A program made the translations under genes and the position numbers. This document shows positions 43,134 to 49,792 of a stretch of DNA of 55,179 bases, one piece after another (positions within the stretch are counted from its first letter, which is position 1; each line of letters begins with the position of its first letter). The notes under the pieces were generated by a model. That model made no database searches. It saw only the letters and a list, made by a program, of their open reading frames with translations, and was not told where the DNA came from. Source of the stretch: Flammeovirga sp. SJP92 (GTDB taxonomy: Bacteria > Bacteroidota > Bacteroidia > Cytophagales > Flammeovirgaceae); NCBI RefSeq assembly GCF_001583495.1, contig NZ_LQAQ01000016.1, forward strand, positions 1 to 55,179, written 5' to 3'.

Positions 43134-44063
43134 ATGGCAACCGATTTTTTTTATAACCAGAAAGTTCATCAATACTCAAAAAGTGAAGGAATCACTGAGA
43201 AGAATTCAGTCTATCGTCTTGGAGTGGAATACATGGAAGATGATGATGATCAAACCTTAATTGAACTGATTGATGCTTTTCTTGATGATCCAAAATTAAA
43301 AGATGTAGTCGGACTAAGCATCGGTGTTTGGCCTAATGCCTACGATTCAGATTGTGAAAGTTTTATCAACAAACTCGTTGAGGAAAAAGAGCGTTTACAA
43401 CACATTGAAGCACTATTTATTGGTGACATGGACTATGATGAATGTGAAATTTCATGGATTCAACAAGCCAACCTCAATGCTATCTTCAAAAACTTCCCGA
43501 ACCTTAAGATGCTACAAATAAAAGGAAGTGAAGGACTGTCACTTGGTGAAATAGAACATCAAAACCTAGAAACACTTGTACTTCAATCCGGGGGCTTGTC
43601 CAAAAATGTGCTTCAAGAAATTGGTAATGCAGCATTACCGAAGTTAAAGCATTTGGAGATCTGGTTAGGAACAGATGACTATGGTTACGACTGTGAAGTA
43701 GAAGCTGATATTTTACCTTTATTAGAAATAGGTAAATTCCCTTCTCTATTTCACTTAGGGCTTCAAAACTGCATCGATGCTGATGACATTGTACAGTTGA
43801 TTTCCGTGACTCCATTACAAGAAACAATTCTTTCTCTGGACTTATCAATGGGGACATTAGGAGATAAAAGTGCTGAAGGTTTACTCAATGCACCATGTAT
43901 GCCACAACTATGCTATTTAAACCTAAGTAGTAATTATTTATCTAGTGGAATTGGCCAAAAGATCAAAGAGAAATTCCCGCATATTGAACTAAAAATGGGG
44001 GAACAAAAAGAAGAAGATGTTTATGACGATGAAACCTATCGTTATGTTGATGTAGGTGAATAA
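43134..44063 (+). CDS. STM4015-like leucine-rich-repeat protein
   Basis: First gene of a six-gene operon. The 309-residue soluble, acidic protein has irregular leucine-rich repeats from about residue 60 to 290: LQHIEALFIGDMDYDECEIS, FPNLKMLQIKGSEGLSLGEI, LPKLKHLEIWLGTDDYGYD, FPSLFHLGLQNCIDADDIV and LCYLNLSSNYLSSG. The G-D-M-D-Y and L-E-x-W-L-G-T-D features match my recollection of the STM4015 family, which accompanies radical SAM proteins STM4012 and STM4011. No catalytic site is visible; a scaffold or recognition role is plausible. The TTG-started ATP-grasp gene follows after 11 nt. Confidence 0.82.
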   Translation: MATDFFYNQKVHQYSKSEGITEKNSVYRLGVEYMEDDDDQTLIELIDAFLDDPKLKDVVGLSIGVWPNAYDSDCESFINKLVEEKERLQHIEALFIGDMDYDECEISWIQQANLNAIFKNFPNLKMLQIKGSEGLSLGEIEHQNLETLVLQSGGLSKNVLQEIGNAALPKLKHLEIWLGTDDYGYDCEVEADILPLLEIGKFPSLFHLGLQNCIDADDIVQLISVTPLQETILSLDLSMGTLGDKSAEGLLNAPCMPQLCYLNLSSNYLSSGIGQKIKEKFPHIELKMGEQKEEDVYDDETYRYVDVGE

Positions 44064-44074
44064 TCAATCCTGTT

Positions 44075-45217
44075 TTGAAAGTAATACTTATAGGCAATCC
44101 TGAGAACCGTAGGCTTCAGATGATGCAAGAAGCGCTACACTCTTATCAATTAAACTACCAAACAATAGCGTGGATAGATTTTCTATCCACGCCTCATTCC
44201 TTTGAAAGCATTGTTGAAGAAAACGACATCATAAAAATTGATTCCTTTGGTGAGAATTTCGATGTCTTTAAAGGATTATTGAAATGGGGAAGTGAAAGCA
44301 TAAAAAAAGAAGAATTTCATCAAATCTCTAAAGAGAAAATTGATTCTCTTCCTAATGACAAAGGTAGAATTCAATATTCTAGACAAGCTTACTTAGGGTT
44401 TAAAGAAGCGTTGAAGTTTGTAGAGAATTGTGCCATAAAGAAGGATAACGTAAGGTTTATTAATACCCCTACGGCTATTCTTCAGATGTTTGATAAGAAG
44501 AACGCCCATCAAATTCTTTTGGAACATCATGTTGCTAAAACAAAATTCTTAGGGACGGTTCGGAGTTATGAAGAATTACATCAAATGATGGATCAAGCAA
44601 AAGAACATCAAGTTTTCATCAAGCTTACACACGGTTCTTCCTCTTCGGGAGTAATGGCTTATAGAAGAAGTAAAAGTAGAGAAGTATTAAAAACGTCTGT
44701 TGAAATTGATAAATCTTCCGCTTTATATAACTCATTAAACATTAGTACTTATCGTGATGCTACTAAGATTGAATTGATCATCAATCAATTGGCGAAAGAG
44801 CACCTTATTGTTGAAAAATGGGAACCTAAAGCTACTTTCAACAATAAAGTATTTGATTTACGATTGGTCGTCATTGGTCAAAAAATAGAACATGTGGTGA
44901 TGAGATCCAGCACCTCACCGATGACCAATCTACACCTTGGCAATGAGAGAGGAGACCTCAATGGATTGATCGATTATTTGGGAAATGAAAAGTGGGAAGA
45001 AATAGAACAGACAGCGATACAAGCAGTCAAATCATTTCAAGGTGCTGTGGTGGCAGGAGTTGACTTGATGGTCCAATCCAACAGTCATAAAGTAAAAATT
45101 ATTGAAGTGAATGCTTTTGGTGATTTAGTGCCTAGAATTGTCAATTCCGAAGGCAGAACAACCTATGAAGAACAAGCTTTTATCATTAAATCCATTTTCG
45201 ATGAAGTCCTTACCTAA
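44075..45217 (+). CDS. STM4014-like ATP-grasp protein
   Basis: ATP-grasp enzyme of 380 residues, presumably forming an amide or similar bond by way of an acyl-phosphate. The start is TTG at 44075: the encoded MKVILIGNPENRR is the expected family N-terminus and the next ATG is 15 codons in. ATP-grasp features are a nucleotide-binding Lys and glycine/serine loop (VFIKLTHGSSSSGVMAYRR, about residues 176-194), the strand pair KVFDLRLVVIGQK, and the Mg-ligand region KIIEVNAFGDLVPRI near residue 350. Its 3' end overlaps the HAD gene by 17 nt. Substrates are unknown. Confidence 0.82.
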   Translation: MKVILIGNPENRRLQMMQEALHSYQLNYQTIAWIDFLSTPHSFESIVEENDIIKIDSFGENFDVFKGLLKWGSESIKKEEFHQISKEKIDSLPNDKGRIQYSRQAYLGFKEALKFVENCAIKKDNVRFINTPTAILQMFDKKNAHQILLEHHVAKTKFLGTVRSYEELHQMMDQAKEHQVFIKLTHGSSSSGVMAYRRSKSREVLKTSVEIDKSSALYNSLNISTYRDATKIELIINQLAKEHLIVEKWEPKATFNNKVFDLRLVVIGQKIEHVVMRSSTSPMTNLHLGNERGDLNGLIDYLGNEKWEEIEQTAIQAVKSFQGAVVAGVDLMVQSNSHKVKIIEVNAFGDLVPRIVNSEGRTTYEEQAFIIKSIFDEVLT

Positions 45218-45857
45218 AAATATTAAATGTCTCGTTTTCGATTTAGATAATACTTTAATCGATAGAGACAAAGCCTACAGTACTTACTTAGAAAAAGCAT
45301 TTGAGTTTGTCAATCAACCTAATATATGGACTGAAAATAAAGCGACCATTCTTGAATACGATAATAAAGGGTACAGATCAAGAGATACTTTTTATCAATG
45401 GCTTATTTCAAAATTCATTCATCAAAAATTATTTGAGGAGTTTCAGAAGAAGTATGTCGTTGGGGATTTTGTGGAGAAAATAGACACTTCAATCCTTCAA
45501 TTTTTAGCGGAATTAAAAGAACATTTTCACCTTGTATTACTAACAAATGGAGGGAATCATAATCAACAGAAAAAGATTGTAAACTCTGGATTATTTAAAA
45601 TCTTCCCTCCAACTTCTACTTTCATATCAGGAGATTATAGTTTTGAAAAGCCTAATCCACTTTTCTTTCATTTAATTCAAATGGAATATGGGTATACGCC
45701 CGAAGAAATTGTTATGATCGGTGACGATTATGACAAGGATATCAAAGGTGCTCATCAAATGGGATGGAAAACAATTCACCTCAACCCTACTAAAACAAAA
45801 GAATCAATTGCGGATATTCAAATCAATGACATTCAAGAAATAGCCAATTATATATGA
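45201..45857 (+). CDS. HAD-family hydrolase
   Basis: A 218-residue HAD-superfamily phosphatase. The start at 45201 (MKSLPKNIKCLVFDLDNTLID) places the nucleophile Asp-14 and acid/base Asp-16 correctly; a longer frame from 45138 runs through the preceding gene and is unlikely. Motif II is VLLTNGG, motif III the Lys in FEKPNPLFF, and motif IV EIVMIGDDYDKDIKGA. A helical cap lies between motifs I and II (C1 type). It overlaps STM4014 upstream by 17 nt and STM4013 downstream by 4 nt. As I recall the classical STM4011-4015 set, this HAD gene is an addition. Its position suggests that it removes a phosphate from a pathway intermediate. Confidence 0.88.
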   Translation: MKSLPKNIKCLVFDLDNTLIDRDKAYSTYLEKAFEFVNQPNIWTENKATILEYDNKGYRSRDTFYQWLISKFIHQKLFEEFQKKYVVGDFVEKIDTSILQFLAELKEHFHLVLLTNGGNHNQQKKIVNSGLFKIFPPTSTFISGDYSFEKPNPLFFHLIQMEYGYTPEEIVMIGDDYDKDIKGAHQMGWKTIHLNPTKTKESIADIQINDIQEIANYI

Positions 45858-46651
45858 TCAATACGAATAAAATAGTGGGTGATTATGATATTGTTTTGAT
45901 CACTTTGGACACATTGAGATATGATGTCAGCCAACAACTTTTTAAAGAAAAGCGATTACCTCAACTTCAAAAATATCTACCAGAATCAGGTTGGGAGAAA
46001 AGACATGCACCGGGGAGTTTTACCTATGCTTCTCATCATGCTATTTTTTCGGGCTTTTTCCCCACTCCCATTGATCAACCAAAGCAAGAACGGTTGTTTG
46101 CCACTCAGTTTGCGGGGAGTGAAACAACCAACACCAACACTTTCACATTTGAACAAGCCACAATTATTGATGGGTTAAAAGCAAAAGGATATCATACAGC
46201 TTGCATTGGTGGAGTGGGCTTTTTCAACAAAAGGACTTCATTGAGTAACGTGTTTCCGTCCATGTTTGATGAAAGTCACTGGGAAGACTGTCTAGGTGTC
46301 ACCTCTCCTTTTTCTACAAAATACCAGTTTCAAAAAGCAGAGGAAATTGTACAGCAAAATCAGCAAAACAGGCTTTTTCTGTTTATCAATATTTCAGCCA
46401 TACACCAACCCAATTATTTCTACCAACAAGGAGCCAAAGTGGATTCAATCACTACACATGCCAAAGCATTAGAGTATGTGGATAGTCAATGGGAAATTTT
46501 GATGAATGCTTTCAAGGGACGACCAACCTTATTTTTACTTATGGGAGATCACGGAACTGCTTATGGGGAAGACGGATTCAATGGACATCGATTGGCCCAT
46601 GAAGTCGTTTGGAATGTCCCTTATGCTGAATTTTTAATGAATGAAAAATGA
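45854..46651 (+). CDS. STM4013-like alkaline-phosphatase-superfamily hydrolase
   Basis: A 265-residue cytoplasmic protein (no signal peptide) with a sulfatase/phosphodiesterase-type core. The first metal motif is DIVLITLDTLRYDV (Asp-19), and the nucleophile region is APGSFTYASHHAIFSGFFP, where Thr-57 takes the place of the Cys/Ser converted to formylglycine in sulfatases. The second metal site is LLMGDHGTAYGEDG, followed by a His in FNGHRLAHEVVW. Thr at this position points to phosphatase, phosphodiesterase or phosphotransferase rather than sulfatase chemistry. It overlaps both neighbours by 4 nt (ATGA). The substrate is unknown. Confidence 0.84.
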   Translation: MINTNKIVGDYDIVLITLDTLRYDVSQQLFKEKRLPQLQKYLPESGWEKRHAPGSFTYASHHAIFSGFFPTPIDQPKQERLFATQFAGSETTNTNTFTFEQATIIDGLKAKGYHTACIGGVGFFNKRTSLSNVFPSMFDESHWEDCLGVTSPFSTKYQFQKAEEIVQQNQQNRLFLFINISAIHQPNYFYQQGAKVDSITTHAKALEYVDSQWEILMNAFKGRPTLFLLMGDHGTAYGEDGFNGHRLAHEVVWNVPYAEFLMNEK

Positions 46652-47967
46652 ATTTAAAAGAATATATCAACCAATCATACTATCATTCTTATGCCTACTC
46701 TTACCCTCATAAAATGGCATATAGAAACTTTGAAAAACCACTATCACTCCAAGAAGTGTGGAGCGTGGAAAAGAAGCGTGATGTTTTTCTATACCTTCAT
46801 CTTCCCTTTTGTGAAATGAGATGTGGCTTCTGTAATCTATTTACAATTGCCAATCCAAAAGGCAACCTCCAAAACGAGTTTCTTAATGCATTGACAAGAC
46901 AGGTTGAAGCCGTTAAAGAGGAATTAGGAGACCTTCATTTTGCCAATTTTGCTTTTGGAGGAGGTACCCCAAGTTACCTTTCAGCAGAAGAACTACAGTC
47001 TGTTTTATCAACGCTGAATTCCTCTTTAGGATTAAAAACTGAAGTCGTCAATTCCGCTATTGAAGTTTCTCCTAAAACTATTACGGCCGATAAAATTCAA
47101 CTCCTTAAAAAAAAAGGCTTCTTCCGGGTAAGTATGGGCGTGCAAAGCTTCATTGAACAGGAAGTGAAGGCAATGGGAAGACCCCAAAAAGTGGAAGAAG
47201 TGAGAAGAGCAATCAGAGACTTAAAAGAAGCTCAATTTCCATTACTCAACTTGGATTTGATTTATGGAGCTGAAAATCAAACAACGGAAAGTTGGCAATA
47301 TACCTTAGATCAAATGATAGAAATTTCACCCGAAGAGGTTTTTCTTTACCCTTTGTATGTAAGACCATTGACAGGTTTGGGATTGAAAGAACAAGCTTGG
47401 GATGATTTCAGAATGAAGTTATACCTACAGGCAAGGGATTTCTTAATGAGCAATGACTATGAGCAAATCACAATGAGACAATTCAAGAAAAAGAACGCTC
47501 CTTCATTTGCTCACCCCGATTATTTACCACAAGAAAATGCAATGTTAGGATTAGGTGTAGGAGCTCGCTCTTATACCAAATCGCTGCATTACAGTAGCGA
47601 TTACGCTGTCGGGAGATCTTCCATTAAGCATATTATCGAGAATTATAACAACACTTCTAAGGAGGAGTTCAAAAAAGTGAATTATGGTATTCAACTTGAT
47701 CTAGAAGAAGAGAAAAGAAGGTATTTCATTAAGTCCTTCTGCGAAGGAACAGGTTTACCCATTGCTTCTTATCAAGCCTACTTTAATTCTTCTGTATTGG
47801 AGGATTTCAAACTTGAAATAGAAGAGATGTACCAACTCCAATTGATTGACATCAGCACATCATCCATCCAACTCAACCTAAAAGGACGAACACTGGAAGA
47901 CGTGATTGGCCCTTGGTTGTATTCTCATTCAATAAAAGAATCTATTGCTCAATTTGACTTAGTATAA
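46648..47967 (+). CDS. STM4012-like radical SAM protein (HemN-like)
   Basis: Radical S-adenosylmethionine enzyme of 439 residues in the HemN/HemW-like branch. The [4Fe-4S] motif is HLPFCEMRCGFCNLFT (Cys-55, -59, -62). SAM-binding features follow as FAFGGGTPSYLSAEEL, a later strand EVSPKTITADKIQLLKKKGF, and GVQSFIEQEVKAMGRPQ. A C-terminal HemN_C-type domain is suggested by LGLGVGARSYTKSLHYSSDY and the winged-helix-like end. It is not expected to be the coproporphyrinogen oxidase itself, because it is embedded in this specialised operon. It overlaps STM4013 by 4 nt and STM4011 by 1 nt. Confidence 0.87.
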   Translation: MNLKEYINQSYYHSYAYSYPHKMAYRNFEKPLSLQEVWSVEKKRDVFLYLHLPFCEMRCGFCNLFTIANPKGNLQNEFLNALTRQVEAVKEELGDLHFANFAFGGGTPSYLSAEELQSVLSTLNSSLGLKTEVVNSAIEVSPKTITADKIQLLKKKGFFRVSMGVQSFIEQEVKAMGRPQKVEEVRRAIRDLKEAQFPLLNLDLIYGAENQTTESWQYTLDQMIEISPEEVFLYPLYVRPLTGLGLKEQAWDDFRMKLYLQARDFLMSNDYEQITMRQFKKKNAPSFAHPDYLPQENAMLGLGVGARSYTKSLHYSSDYAVGRSSIKHIIENYNNTSKEEFKKVNYGIQLDLEEEKRRYFIKSFCEGTGLPIASYQAYFNSSVLEDFKLEIEEMYQLQLIDISTSSIQLNLKGRTLEDVIGPWLYSHSIKESIAQFDLV

Positions 47968-48818
47968 TGCATAAAACTTGGAATATTCTTTACAGAGGAC
48001 CATTGACCAGCTGTAATTATTCTTGTCACTACTGCCCTTTTGCCAAAACAAAAAACACAAGAGAAGAATTGGCGATTGATGCTCAAAAGTTAATGCAGTT
48101 TCAAAATTGGGTAAAGCATAGAAGTGAAAGAATTGGTATTTTATTCACGCCTTGGGGAGAAGGATTAATCCGAAAATACTATCAACAGGCGATGACTGCA
48201 TTGAGTCATATGAACAATGTTTATAGGGTCGCCATACAAACTAATTTATCCTGTAGTACCGATTGGATGGATGAAGTCAATAAGGAGAGTTTTGCATTAT
48301 GGACCACCTATCATCCTAGCCAATTGTCCTTAGACGCATTTCTGGAAAAATGCCATTCATTGATTGAGAAAAATATTAGATTTAGTGTGGGAACTGTGGG
48401 TTTAAAAGAAGATCTTGATGTGATTACTCAATTAAGAAAAAGACTTCCTTCCTCCGTGTATTTATGGGTAAACGCTTACAAGAGAGAAACCGATTATTAT
48501 GAGCAAGAGCATTTGAAAAGAATCCTTGAAGTGGACCCATTATTCCATTGGAACAATCAACGGCATGAGAGTCTAGGCAAACCCTGCCATGCTGGCTCCA
48601 CTACTTTTTCAGTGGATGGTGATGGCAATATGACTTCCTGCCACTTTATCAAAGATCAAATTGGGAATATCTACCATGATAATTTTGAAGAGGCATTACA
48701 GCCCAAATTATGTTCTAACACTACTTGCGGTTGTCATATAGGATATGTTCATCTTCAAGAATTAGAGCAAGATAAAATTTATGGAGATGGAATTTTAGAG
48801 CGAATCCCATTGGTTTAA
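47967..48818 (+). CDS. STM4011-like radical SAM protein with auxiliary Cys cluster
   Basis: Second radical SAM enzyme of the operon, 283 residues. The canonical motif is SCNYSCHYCPFAKT (Cys-16, -20, -23). The C-terminal part carries five further Cys (about residues 207, 225, 249, 254 and 256, including KPCHAG, MTSCHF and TTCGCHIG) in a SPASM/twitch-like spacing that can hold an additional Fe-S cluster. Such domains occur in enzymes that modify peptides, sugars or small molecules. It ends the operon, and a strong bidirectional terminator follows within 6 nt. The reaction is unknown; the two radical SAM enzymes probably act on the same pathway. Confidence 0.87.
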   Translation: MHKTWNILYRGPLTSCNYSCHYCPFAKTKNTREELAIDAQKLMQFQNWVKHRSERIGILFTPWGEGLIRKYYQQAMTALSHMNNVYRVAIQTNLSCSTDWMDEVNKESFALWTTYHPSQLSLDAFLEKCHSLIEKNIRFSVGTVGLKEDLDVITQLRKRLPSSVYLWVNAYKRETDYYEQEHLKRILEVDPLFHWNNQRHESLGKPCHAGSTTFSVDGDGNMTSCHFIKDQIGNIYHDNFEEALQPKLCSNTTCGCHIGYVHLQELEQDKIYGDGILERIPLV

Positions 48819-48823
48819 AATAG

Positions 48824-48866
48824 AAAAAGAGACCACATTTTTTTAAAACTGTGGTCTCTTTTTTTA
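48824..48866. terminator. Bidirectional terminator closing the six-gene operon
   Basis: AAAAAGAGACCACA pairs perfectly with TGTGGTCTCTTTTT, flanked by A and T tracts. It also serves the convergent minus-strand BatC-like gene. Confidence 0.92.
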
Positions 48867-48886
48867 TCATTTTCAGCAGAAACATT

Positions 48887-49792
48887 CTACCAGTCTGGCT
48901 TGTTTCTATCCTGTTTTTTGGACTTTTTCTTTTGCTGTTGGAAGTATTGCACTTCCTTATTTTTTAAGGCATCCAAAATCATCTGAGCTTGAGAGGCAGG
49001 CATTTTGATTTCCTCCATTCGGTTATTGAAGTTGGCTTGTTCTTCCGCTTTTTCACGTTCTTTACGCTCTTCCTCAGTTTCCTCTCCCTGTTCTCCTTCT
49101 TGCTCTTGATTCTCTTCCTGATCACCCTCTTTTTGATCACCATTCTGAGAATCTTTTTGATCTTTATTATCTTTCTGATCACCTTCCTGTTGATCCTGTT
49201 GCTCTTGGTTCTCGTCTTGATCTTGTTCCTGATCCTGATTTTGATCGTTCTGATCTTGGTTTTGGTCCTGCTGATCCTGTTGATCTTGCTTATCCTGATT
49301 TTCGTCGTTTTGATCTTGGTTCTGATCCTGATTCTGCTGTTCTTGTTCCTCTTGTTCTTTCTTTTGCTTCAACAACATCTCATAATCATACCTTGCACCC
49401 ATATTTTGAGGGTCATGCTTCATTGCCGCTTTCAAAAAGGCCAGCGCTTCCTCCAACTTTTGTTCTTGAGCTTTGAGCACTCCTAACTGTTGGTTTGCAA
49501 TAGAAGCAATTTTCTTGTTTGCTGAATTCTGAATGCTGGCATAGCGTTTAGTTGCATTCTCCTTATCTTCAGAAAGGAAATAAGAATGTGCTAAATCAAG
49601 CATTGCCGCATCATCTTCAATTTTCATAGAGTCCAGTAGAATAGTATAAGCATCAATTGCAGTTTTATAATCTTTTGCAATAAATGCTTCCTCTCCTGCG
49701 GATTTTTGTTTATTAGCTTCCGCGATTCTTCCGATTCCGTTATGATCTGAAAATATATTTAAGACGATTAATAGTGTTAAAATCGTATTCAT
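48887..49792 (-). CDS. batC: BatC-like TPR protein with Gln/Asp-rich region
   Basis: A 301-residue protein with a short hydrophobic N-terminus, then tetratricopeptide-like helices (about residues 30-140: GEEAFIAKDYKTAIDAYTIL, EALAFLKAAMKHDPQNMGAR). A very long charged, low-complexity stretch of Gln, Asp, Asn, Glu and Lys follows (about 140-245, variations on QDQNQDQND), and then the conserved end PASQAQMILDALKNKEVQYF to KPDW. This layout matches BatC of the Bacteroides aerotolerance (Bat) operon, normally located with BatA, BatB, BatD and MoxR. None of these is adjacent; the MoxR gene is 29 kb away. Assignment rests on the layout and C-terminal motif. Confidence 0.75.
   Translation of the reverse strand: MNTILTLLIVLNIFSDHNGIGRIAEANKQKSAGEEAFIAKDYKTAIDAYTILLDSMKIEDDAAMLDLAHSYFLSEDKENATKRYASIQNSANKKIASIANQQLGVLKAQEQKLEEALAFLKAAMKHDPQNMGARYDYEMLLKQKKEQEEQEQQNQDQNQDQNDENQDKQDQQDQQDQNQDQNDQNQDQEQDQDENQEQQDQQEGDQKDNKDQKDSQNGDQKEGDQEENQEQEGEQGEETEEERKEREKAEEQANFNNRMEEIKMPASQAQMILDALKNKEVQYFQQQKKKSKKQDRNKPDW
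49197..49360. repeat. Degenerate GATC-AG/CAG-rich tandem repeat inside batC
   Basis: The region coding for the Gln/Asp/Asn-rich tract consists of imperfect 6-12-nt repeats of the type CAAGATCAG (minus strand). Synonymous variation has broken up perfect repetition. Such tracts are prone to length change by slippage in multiples of three. Confidence 0.6.

Follow-up and report, generated by a model that had tools for sequence, protein, structure and literature searches.

Ribosomal protein S6 ends in glutamate, and RimK, a ligase of the ATP-grasp fold, acts on this C-terminus. In the lysine/arginine system, LysW receives an amino acid on its C-terminal Glu from the ligases ArgX and LysX (PMC10433800, PMC9303977); LysW proteins end in EDWGE, and changing the C-terminal Glu to Ala in the related ArgW gives an arginine auxotroph (PMC10433800). 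In the pearlins (3-thia-amino acids), radical S-adenosylmethionine (SAM) and other enzymes act on a group that a gene-encoded carrier peptide bears at its C-terminus (PMC9303977). Here, we analysed a 55,179-nucleotide stretch of Flammeovirga sp. SJP92 (contig NZ_LQAQ01000016.1, positions 1 to 55,179; hereafter the window), in which six plus-strand genes at 43134-48818 form an operon of the STM4011-STM4015 families, which are named in many genomes, E. coli included. We propose, at about even chances, that the products of this operon form a pathway of biosynthesis or modification tethered to a protein, in which the leucine-rich repeat (LRR) protein STM4015 serves as the carrier and is loaded on its last Glu by the ligase STM4014. 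The proposal of STM4015 as a carrier is new here; judging by its sequence, the protein is probably not a bystander. We found no published function for the STM4011-STM4015 system, in a search from which subscription papers were largely absent, so that an account may exist elsewhere, and only two papers in that search name a gene of the set, in tables of a sigma-54 study and a positive-selection study.

As in the LysW system, an ATP-grasp ligase of the RimK type is encoded next to a protein whose C-terminal Glu is conserved, and the STM4014 model finds its best structural match in ArgX with LysW, tied with RimK. However, LysW is a small carrier with zinc-binding cysteines, whereas STM4015 is an LRR protein with a different tail, and the partners here are radical SAM enzymes and phospho-hydrolases around a putative attachment site. 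An amino-group carrier also bears its amine through an amide bond to the side chain of its Glu, a linkage that is putative for STM4015. With RimK and S6 the locus shares the ATP-grasp fold and a ligase presumed to work on a protein C-terminus, but the RimK family model remains below its cut-off, and STM4014 has a dedicated partner protein and further enzymes in its operon. In contrast to the pearlins, no PEARL-type ligase was found among the six proteins by family scans, and an ATP-grasp ligase and a large folded candidate carrier are present instead. Families were assigned by scores above the curated cut-offs of NCBI (NCBIfam, Pfam). A description of this stretch made from the letters alone (the sequence-only reading) had named the five STM4011-STM4015 families, two radical SAM enzymes, one ATP-dependent ligase and two phospho-hydrolases, in a pathway not yet described: the coordinates agree with its six genes separated by an 11-nt gap and then overlapping by 17, 4, 4 and 1 nt, all five names pass the cut-offs, the enzymes are STM4012 and STM4011, STM4014, and STM4013 and an HAD-IA (haloacid dehalogenase) enzyme, and the literature found gave no reason to revise its view of the pathway.

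STM4015 (43134..44063, plus strand; NF038076, 292.1 bits against a cut-off of 275) ends in Glu309, preceded by a variable acidic linker and a tail of the form [RY]-Y-x-x-[VIL]-small-E; the acidic end and the conserved tail YRYVDVGE, delimited by sequence reading and column conservation, occupy 44034..44060. Of the 120 best homologues listed (173 were found), 119 terminate in Glu, and so do 22 of 22 STM4015 proteins taken from loci, as against 3 of 120 STM4014 homologues and 7 of 120 STM4013 homologues, and the four enzymes show no common C-terminus across 13 operons. Within the 119 Glu-ending tails, Tyr stands at -6 in 104, V, I or L at -3 in 116 and S, G, A or T at -2 in 118. An alignment of 73 of 121 STM4015 sequences, hand-chosen for diversity and leaving out the homologue P0087, was thinned to 25 sequences below 45% identity: all 25 end in Glu, which forms one of 19 invariant columns, and an acidic stretch of variable length precedes the tail. 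The sequence-only reading had seen no precursor peptide inside the operon, and here it fell short, as the LRR protein itself carries a precursor- or carrier-like tail with a near-invariant C-terminal Glu and a conserved 7-residue end; its interpretation as a whole stands for the families, the enzymes and their co-conservation and fails in having missed this tail, while its suggestion of a phosphorylated small molecule may still hold.

The tail is kept in STM4015 versions with WGR or BRCT domains, including the WGR-LRR proteins of the clusters in genome G142 and in Bacteroides finegoldii, and also in tandem copies in Deinococcus, Streptomyces and Nonomuraea. One member of the family has been solved (2ra8, B. 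fragilis Q64V53, deposited as uncharacterised), and its match ends in the similar tail ...YSYPMITE at residue 354 of 362, the last eight residues presumably being a tag; no paper naming 2ra8 was found, within the same literature limits. BRCT and WGR domains are found in DNA-repair or nucleic-acid binding proteins, and the relatives that bear one or the other (P0037, P0042, P0043 and P0118) hint, by their domain content, at a link of the putative STM4015 carrier to nucleic acids. As a separate observation, a plasmid of Streptomyces cadmiisoli carries a solitary STM4015 gene, its tail intact (L035, 4896-5858), about 25 kb from a complete cluster (L036), as if served in trans. In addition, an NGQGD loop in STM4014 pairs with Met at -4 of the STM4015 tail in 4 of 4 loci, and the loci with N[AP]FGD lack this Met in 12 of 12, a co-variation which may merely reflect two lineages.

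STM4014 (44075..45217, plus strand, with a TTG start; NF038074, 357 bits against 175) also matches the rimK_fam profile (E 2.3e-11) and, after it, the glutamate ligases MptN and CofF, and RimK (7qyr) is its sole PDB sequence match at E <=0.01. The idea of a carrier was formed from the STM4015 tail and the RimK/LysX family matches, prior to the structure model of STM4014, which has a mean predicted local distance difference test (pLDDT) score of 95.2 and an ArgX/LysX/RimK-like fold. A Foldseek search of the PDB with this model placed ArgX with LysW, Glu and ADP (3vpb) at ranks 1 and 2, then the graspetide ligase PsnB and LysX and, lower down, RimK and D-Ala-D-Ala ligases. When ranked by VIA-align Z, the top nine rows are ArgX, LysX and RimK (Z 25.2-23.3 over 264-281 residues, root-mean-square deviation 2.6-3.1), with DcsG at 22.4 and glutathione synthetase at 21.8 below them. 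The alignment of the family holds 29 invariant columns in 74 rows, among them R263 and N346, which align with RimK R189 and N262. These two RimK residues contact the last resolved Glu of a bound poly-Glu (PMC10092738, section 3.3).

Two radical SAM enzymes close the operon. STM4012 (46648..47967, plus strand; NF006067, 526.3 bits against 380) finds its best PDB sequence match in HemN 1olt (E 3.5e-56, profile positions 11-426) and also aligns with the HemN-like methyltransferase NocN (profile positions 41-312), but it differs from both in its gene context, and its scores lie below the equivalog cut-offs of hemN (159.8 vs 324.95) and HemW (145.8 vs 205.4). By these scores, STM4012 is neither HemN nor HemW, and stands outside the standard heme pathway as the sequence-only reading had it. 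STM4011 (47967..48818, plus strand; NF038073, 394.1 bits against 200) combines a CxxxCxxC motif with five further invariant cysteines in an alignment of 13 rows, and SkfB, which matches the C-terminal part, is its sole PDB sequence match at E <=0.1.

Between the ligase and the radical SAM genes lie those of two hydrolases. STM4013 (45854..46651, plus strand; NF038075, 379.8 bits against 250) belongs to the alkaline phosphatase/sulfatase superfamily (PF00884, 60.6 vs 25); a formylglycine sulfatase activity is not favoured, as all 54 aligned rows have Thr57 at what we read, by its motif, as the site of the nucleophile. The HAD-IA phosphatase (45201..45857, plus strand; Pfam PF00702, PF13419), seemingly an accessory, passes only broad HAD-IA subfamily models and stays below the cut-offs of the HAD equivalogs TIGR02253 (110.6 vs 169.75), YjjG (77.1 vs 159.9) and PynA (61.2 vs 350). 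HAD-IA-like genes lie in the clusters of Flammeovirga and, by reading, of genomes G010 and G142, Cof-type HAD genes lie in those of Salmonella and E. coli, and HAD domains are fused to an STM4014 relative (P0128) or, as a Cof-type domain, to STM4011 in B. finegoldii. No HAD gene was found between the cluster genes of genome G449 or in the Paenibacillus, Streptomyces and Methylobacterium clusters that were opened. The HAD gene is thus a recurrent but non-universal member of the cluster, and the occurrence of two HAD types in the same role suggests that phosphate removal is part of the chemistry.

The co-inheritance of the genes was followed by profile searches, for STM4011, STM4013, STM4014 and STM4015 in 345 genomes of the class and for STM4012 in 58 relatives. 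STM4011, STM4013 and STM4014 score above cut-off in exactly three genomes (G000, G142 and G449), and STM4015 is confined to the same three, with a score in G142 of 273.6 bits, slightly below the cut-off of 275; the co-conservation on which the sequence-only reading had made its proposal depend is therefore borne out. With the genome of the window excluded and kinship ignored, the chance of two families sharing the same two of 344 genomes is 1.7e-5. Matches below cut-off in further genomes (STM4014, partial, in 40; STM4013 in 30; STM4011 in 8) would fit members of wider superfamilies. Models built from our own alignments were also used to scan 26 loci, which had been located through STM4012, STM4011 or STM4015 matches and therefore are not an unbiased sample of co-occurrence: 17 hold all five as separate genes, one (Embleya) has STM4014 and STM4013 in one open frame beside the other three families, and one (a B. 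finegoldii plasmid) has fragmentary STM4013 and STM4012, the remaining loci showing STM4012 alone (3), STM4015 alone (2) or weak STM4011-like matches only (2). Natural fusions thus join STM4014 with STM4013, and HAD domains with STM4014 or STM4011. Complete clusters occur in five phyla, namely Bacteroidota, Deinococcota, Bacillota, Actinomycetota and Pseudomonadota. An STM4012 match is present in 154 of 5426 E. coli genomes, and both of those opened (2 of the 154) hold the whole cluster together with a Cof-type HAD gene; within Flammeovirga, STM4012 is above cut-off in 4 of 9 genomes.

In the pathway that we propose, STM4015 would act as a carrier whose folded LRR body is joined by an acidic linker to a Glu-ending C-terminal tail. 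STM4014, with ATP, would activate a carboxylate of the last Glu and couple to it the amino group of a small molecule, a step that would parallel those of ArgX and LysX on LysW and of RimK on S6. The tethered group, or the tail, would next undergo radical chemistry by the HemN-like STM4012 and by STM4011, STM4013 and the HAD enzyme would remove phosphate or phosphoester groups, and the product would be released by a peptidase encoded outside the operon, or not be released at all, the protein staying modified. We infer the Glu as attachment site, the action of STM4014 on it, the order of the steps and a small-molecule product; loading by STM4014 appears to be the best supported step, and the later ones are drawn from family chemistry. 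As a broader suggestion, whose likelihood we place somewhat below even, STM4011-STM4015 may represent a widespread and hitherto undescribed class of carrier-protein biosynthesis, in which a growing molecule, loaded by an ArgX/RimK-like ligase onto the C-terminal Glu of an LRR (sometimes WGR-LRR) protein, stays there while it is reshaped by phosphatases and two radical SAM enzymes. If true, the coupling of carrier-protein chemistry with radical SAM enzymes would extend well past the amino-group carrier and pearlin cases; to our knowledge, no LRR fold has been described as such a carrier. The terminal Glu of STM4015 lends itself to a simple experiment on this pathway.

Several observations weigh against this proposal. 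The STM4014 scores lie below the cut-offs of the RimK family (TIGR00768, 43.6 vs 143.4 bits) and of LysX_arch (18.3 vs 275.6), and partial STM4014-like matches below cut-off in the 40 further genomes are taken as other ATP-grasp enzymes. When VIA-align rows differing by at most 1 Z are counted as tied, ArgX, LysX and RimK are tied, DcsG comes less than 1 behind the ninth row, two older entries of LysX drop to 21.0 and 20.7, and PsnB stands at Foldseek rank 3; with such a tie, DcsG so close and PsnB so high, the fold of STM4014 therefore does not single out the carrier system. The alignment of R263 and N346 with the RimK residues falls in a weak stretch (5.7 bits) and at positions common in ATP-grasp enzymes. 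On the side of the carrier, STM4015 shares neither the fold nor the EDWGE motif of LysW, P0087 has no terminal Glu and reads ...DDYKYVEVG followed by an unrelated run, covalent attachment to the Glu is putative, and a release peptidase is not among the six operon genes.

Of the other explanations, two keep STM4015 as the substrate. It could be a precursor of the ribosomally synthesized and post-translationally modified peptide (RiPP) type, with the LRR part as an oversized leader and the tail as the core, whose side chains (e.g., Tyr) STM4011, STM4012 and STM4014 would modify, with optional later cleavage. The C-terminal likeness of STM4011 to the sactipeptide maturase SkfB, its five extra invariant cysteines, the resemblance of the STM4014 model to PsnB and the frequent Tyr at -6 (104 of 119 tails) speak for this. 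The comparison with graspetides, whose precursors are short with a repeated core motif, concerned the ligase fold. Nevertheless, we rate a RiPP-type precursor as unlikely, as the last Glu alone is near-invariant while T, F, N, S or C also occur at -6 and there is wide variation at -5 and -4, the SPASM models remain below cut-off on the operon proteins (TIGR04085, 17.7 vs 27; PF13186, 19.3 vs 21.5), and neither a peptidase nor an exporter was found among the six genes. A lasting modification of the tail in the manner of RimK and S6, in which the group added by STM4014 stays and the radical enzymes finish a protein-bound cofactor or a mark altering the binding of STM4015, would agree with RimK as sole PDB sequence match of the ligase, with an operon devoid of a release enzyme, and with the WGR and BRCT versions, which suggest a binding role of STM4015 itself. 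Two radical SAM enzymes and two hydrolases would nonetheless be much machinery for a mark, and ArgX and LysX match the STM4014 model as well as RimK does, so that this explanation seems rather improbable to us.

Two further explanations were weighed. In a picture along the lines of the sequence-only reading, the product of the enzymes would be a free small molecule, and STM4015 would be a scaffold or sensor with its tail as a docking peptide only. LRR proteins are often binding proteins, and the covalent bond to STM4015 is one we deduce; but docking peptides do not need an invariant C-terminal carboxylate, and the adjoining ligase is similar to enzymes whose substrate is such an end, which makes this picture a shade less probable again than a lasting mark. 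Finally, STM4012 could lead into a side branch of porphyrin or heme metabolism, for which its alignment with HemN 1olt would speak, but this reading has hardly any chance of being right and was rejected, because STM4012 does not reach the hemN and HemW cut-offs and the genome encodes separate HemN (422.2 vs 324.95) and HemW (294 vs 205.4) genes elsewhere; in addition, the operon holds no other heme genes. A role in anti-phage defence was likewise set aside, PADLOC giving weak matches only (STM4012 with PDC-M51A, 36.3 bits, and pVip, 18.2; STM4011 with pVip, 22.4; the relative P0043 with WGR_XIII, 16.3).

Some clusters depart from the complete set. Thirteen of the 22 plasmid records with an STM4012 match were opened. 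The B. finegoldii plasmid (L033, 6740-10757) retains a WGR-LRR STM4015, STM4014 and an STM4011-HAD fusion beside its STM4013 and STM4012 fragments. On plasmids of Rhizobium tropici and Cupriavidus taiwanensis (L024, L025), a divergent STM4012 adjoins a class I methyltransferase, and a plasmid of Streptomyces sp. SAT1 (L051) bears an STM4012 gene that scores 570 bits; all three stretches lack the other four families. A separate precursor peptide, in the form of a recurring intergenic open reading frame, was not found among the 40 rows listed when 1285 small open reading frames from 16 clusters and their surroundings were compared with one another; the coordinates of all 40 place them across larger genes, for the most part in antisense. 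In six loci (L019, L021, L022, L036, L049 and L050), the cluster adjoins a DUF6745 gene and another that encodes about 100 residues. A terminal Y-x-P-x-x-E-[TA] is shared by the three annotated DUF6745 proteins that were read (L019, L021, L022), and the first half of the Deinococcus and Methylobacterium proteins is LRR-like.

At its 3′ border, the operon is closed by a terminator-type hairpin with a T run (about 48820..48867, plus strand; -23.5 kcal/mol, z -8.15), which none of 200 shuffles equalled and which has no entry in a simple terminator scan. The promoter scan was uninformative (16 sites vs 19.4 in shuffles). An insertion at a constant Flammeovirga site is not supported, as the five of nine genomes without the operon have the flanking genes more than 100 kb apart or on other contigs; the closest named records are Flammeovirga sp. 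EKP202 and OC4. Among the neighbouring genes scanned are those for RimO, RsmH, thioredoxin reductase and a protease of the DegP type. Convergent to the end of the operon lies a gene (48887-49792 of the window) for a tetratricopeptide repeat protein with a long low-complexity region rich in Q, D, N and E, which is matched in 9 of 9 Flammeovirga genomes.

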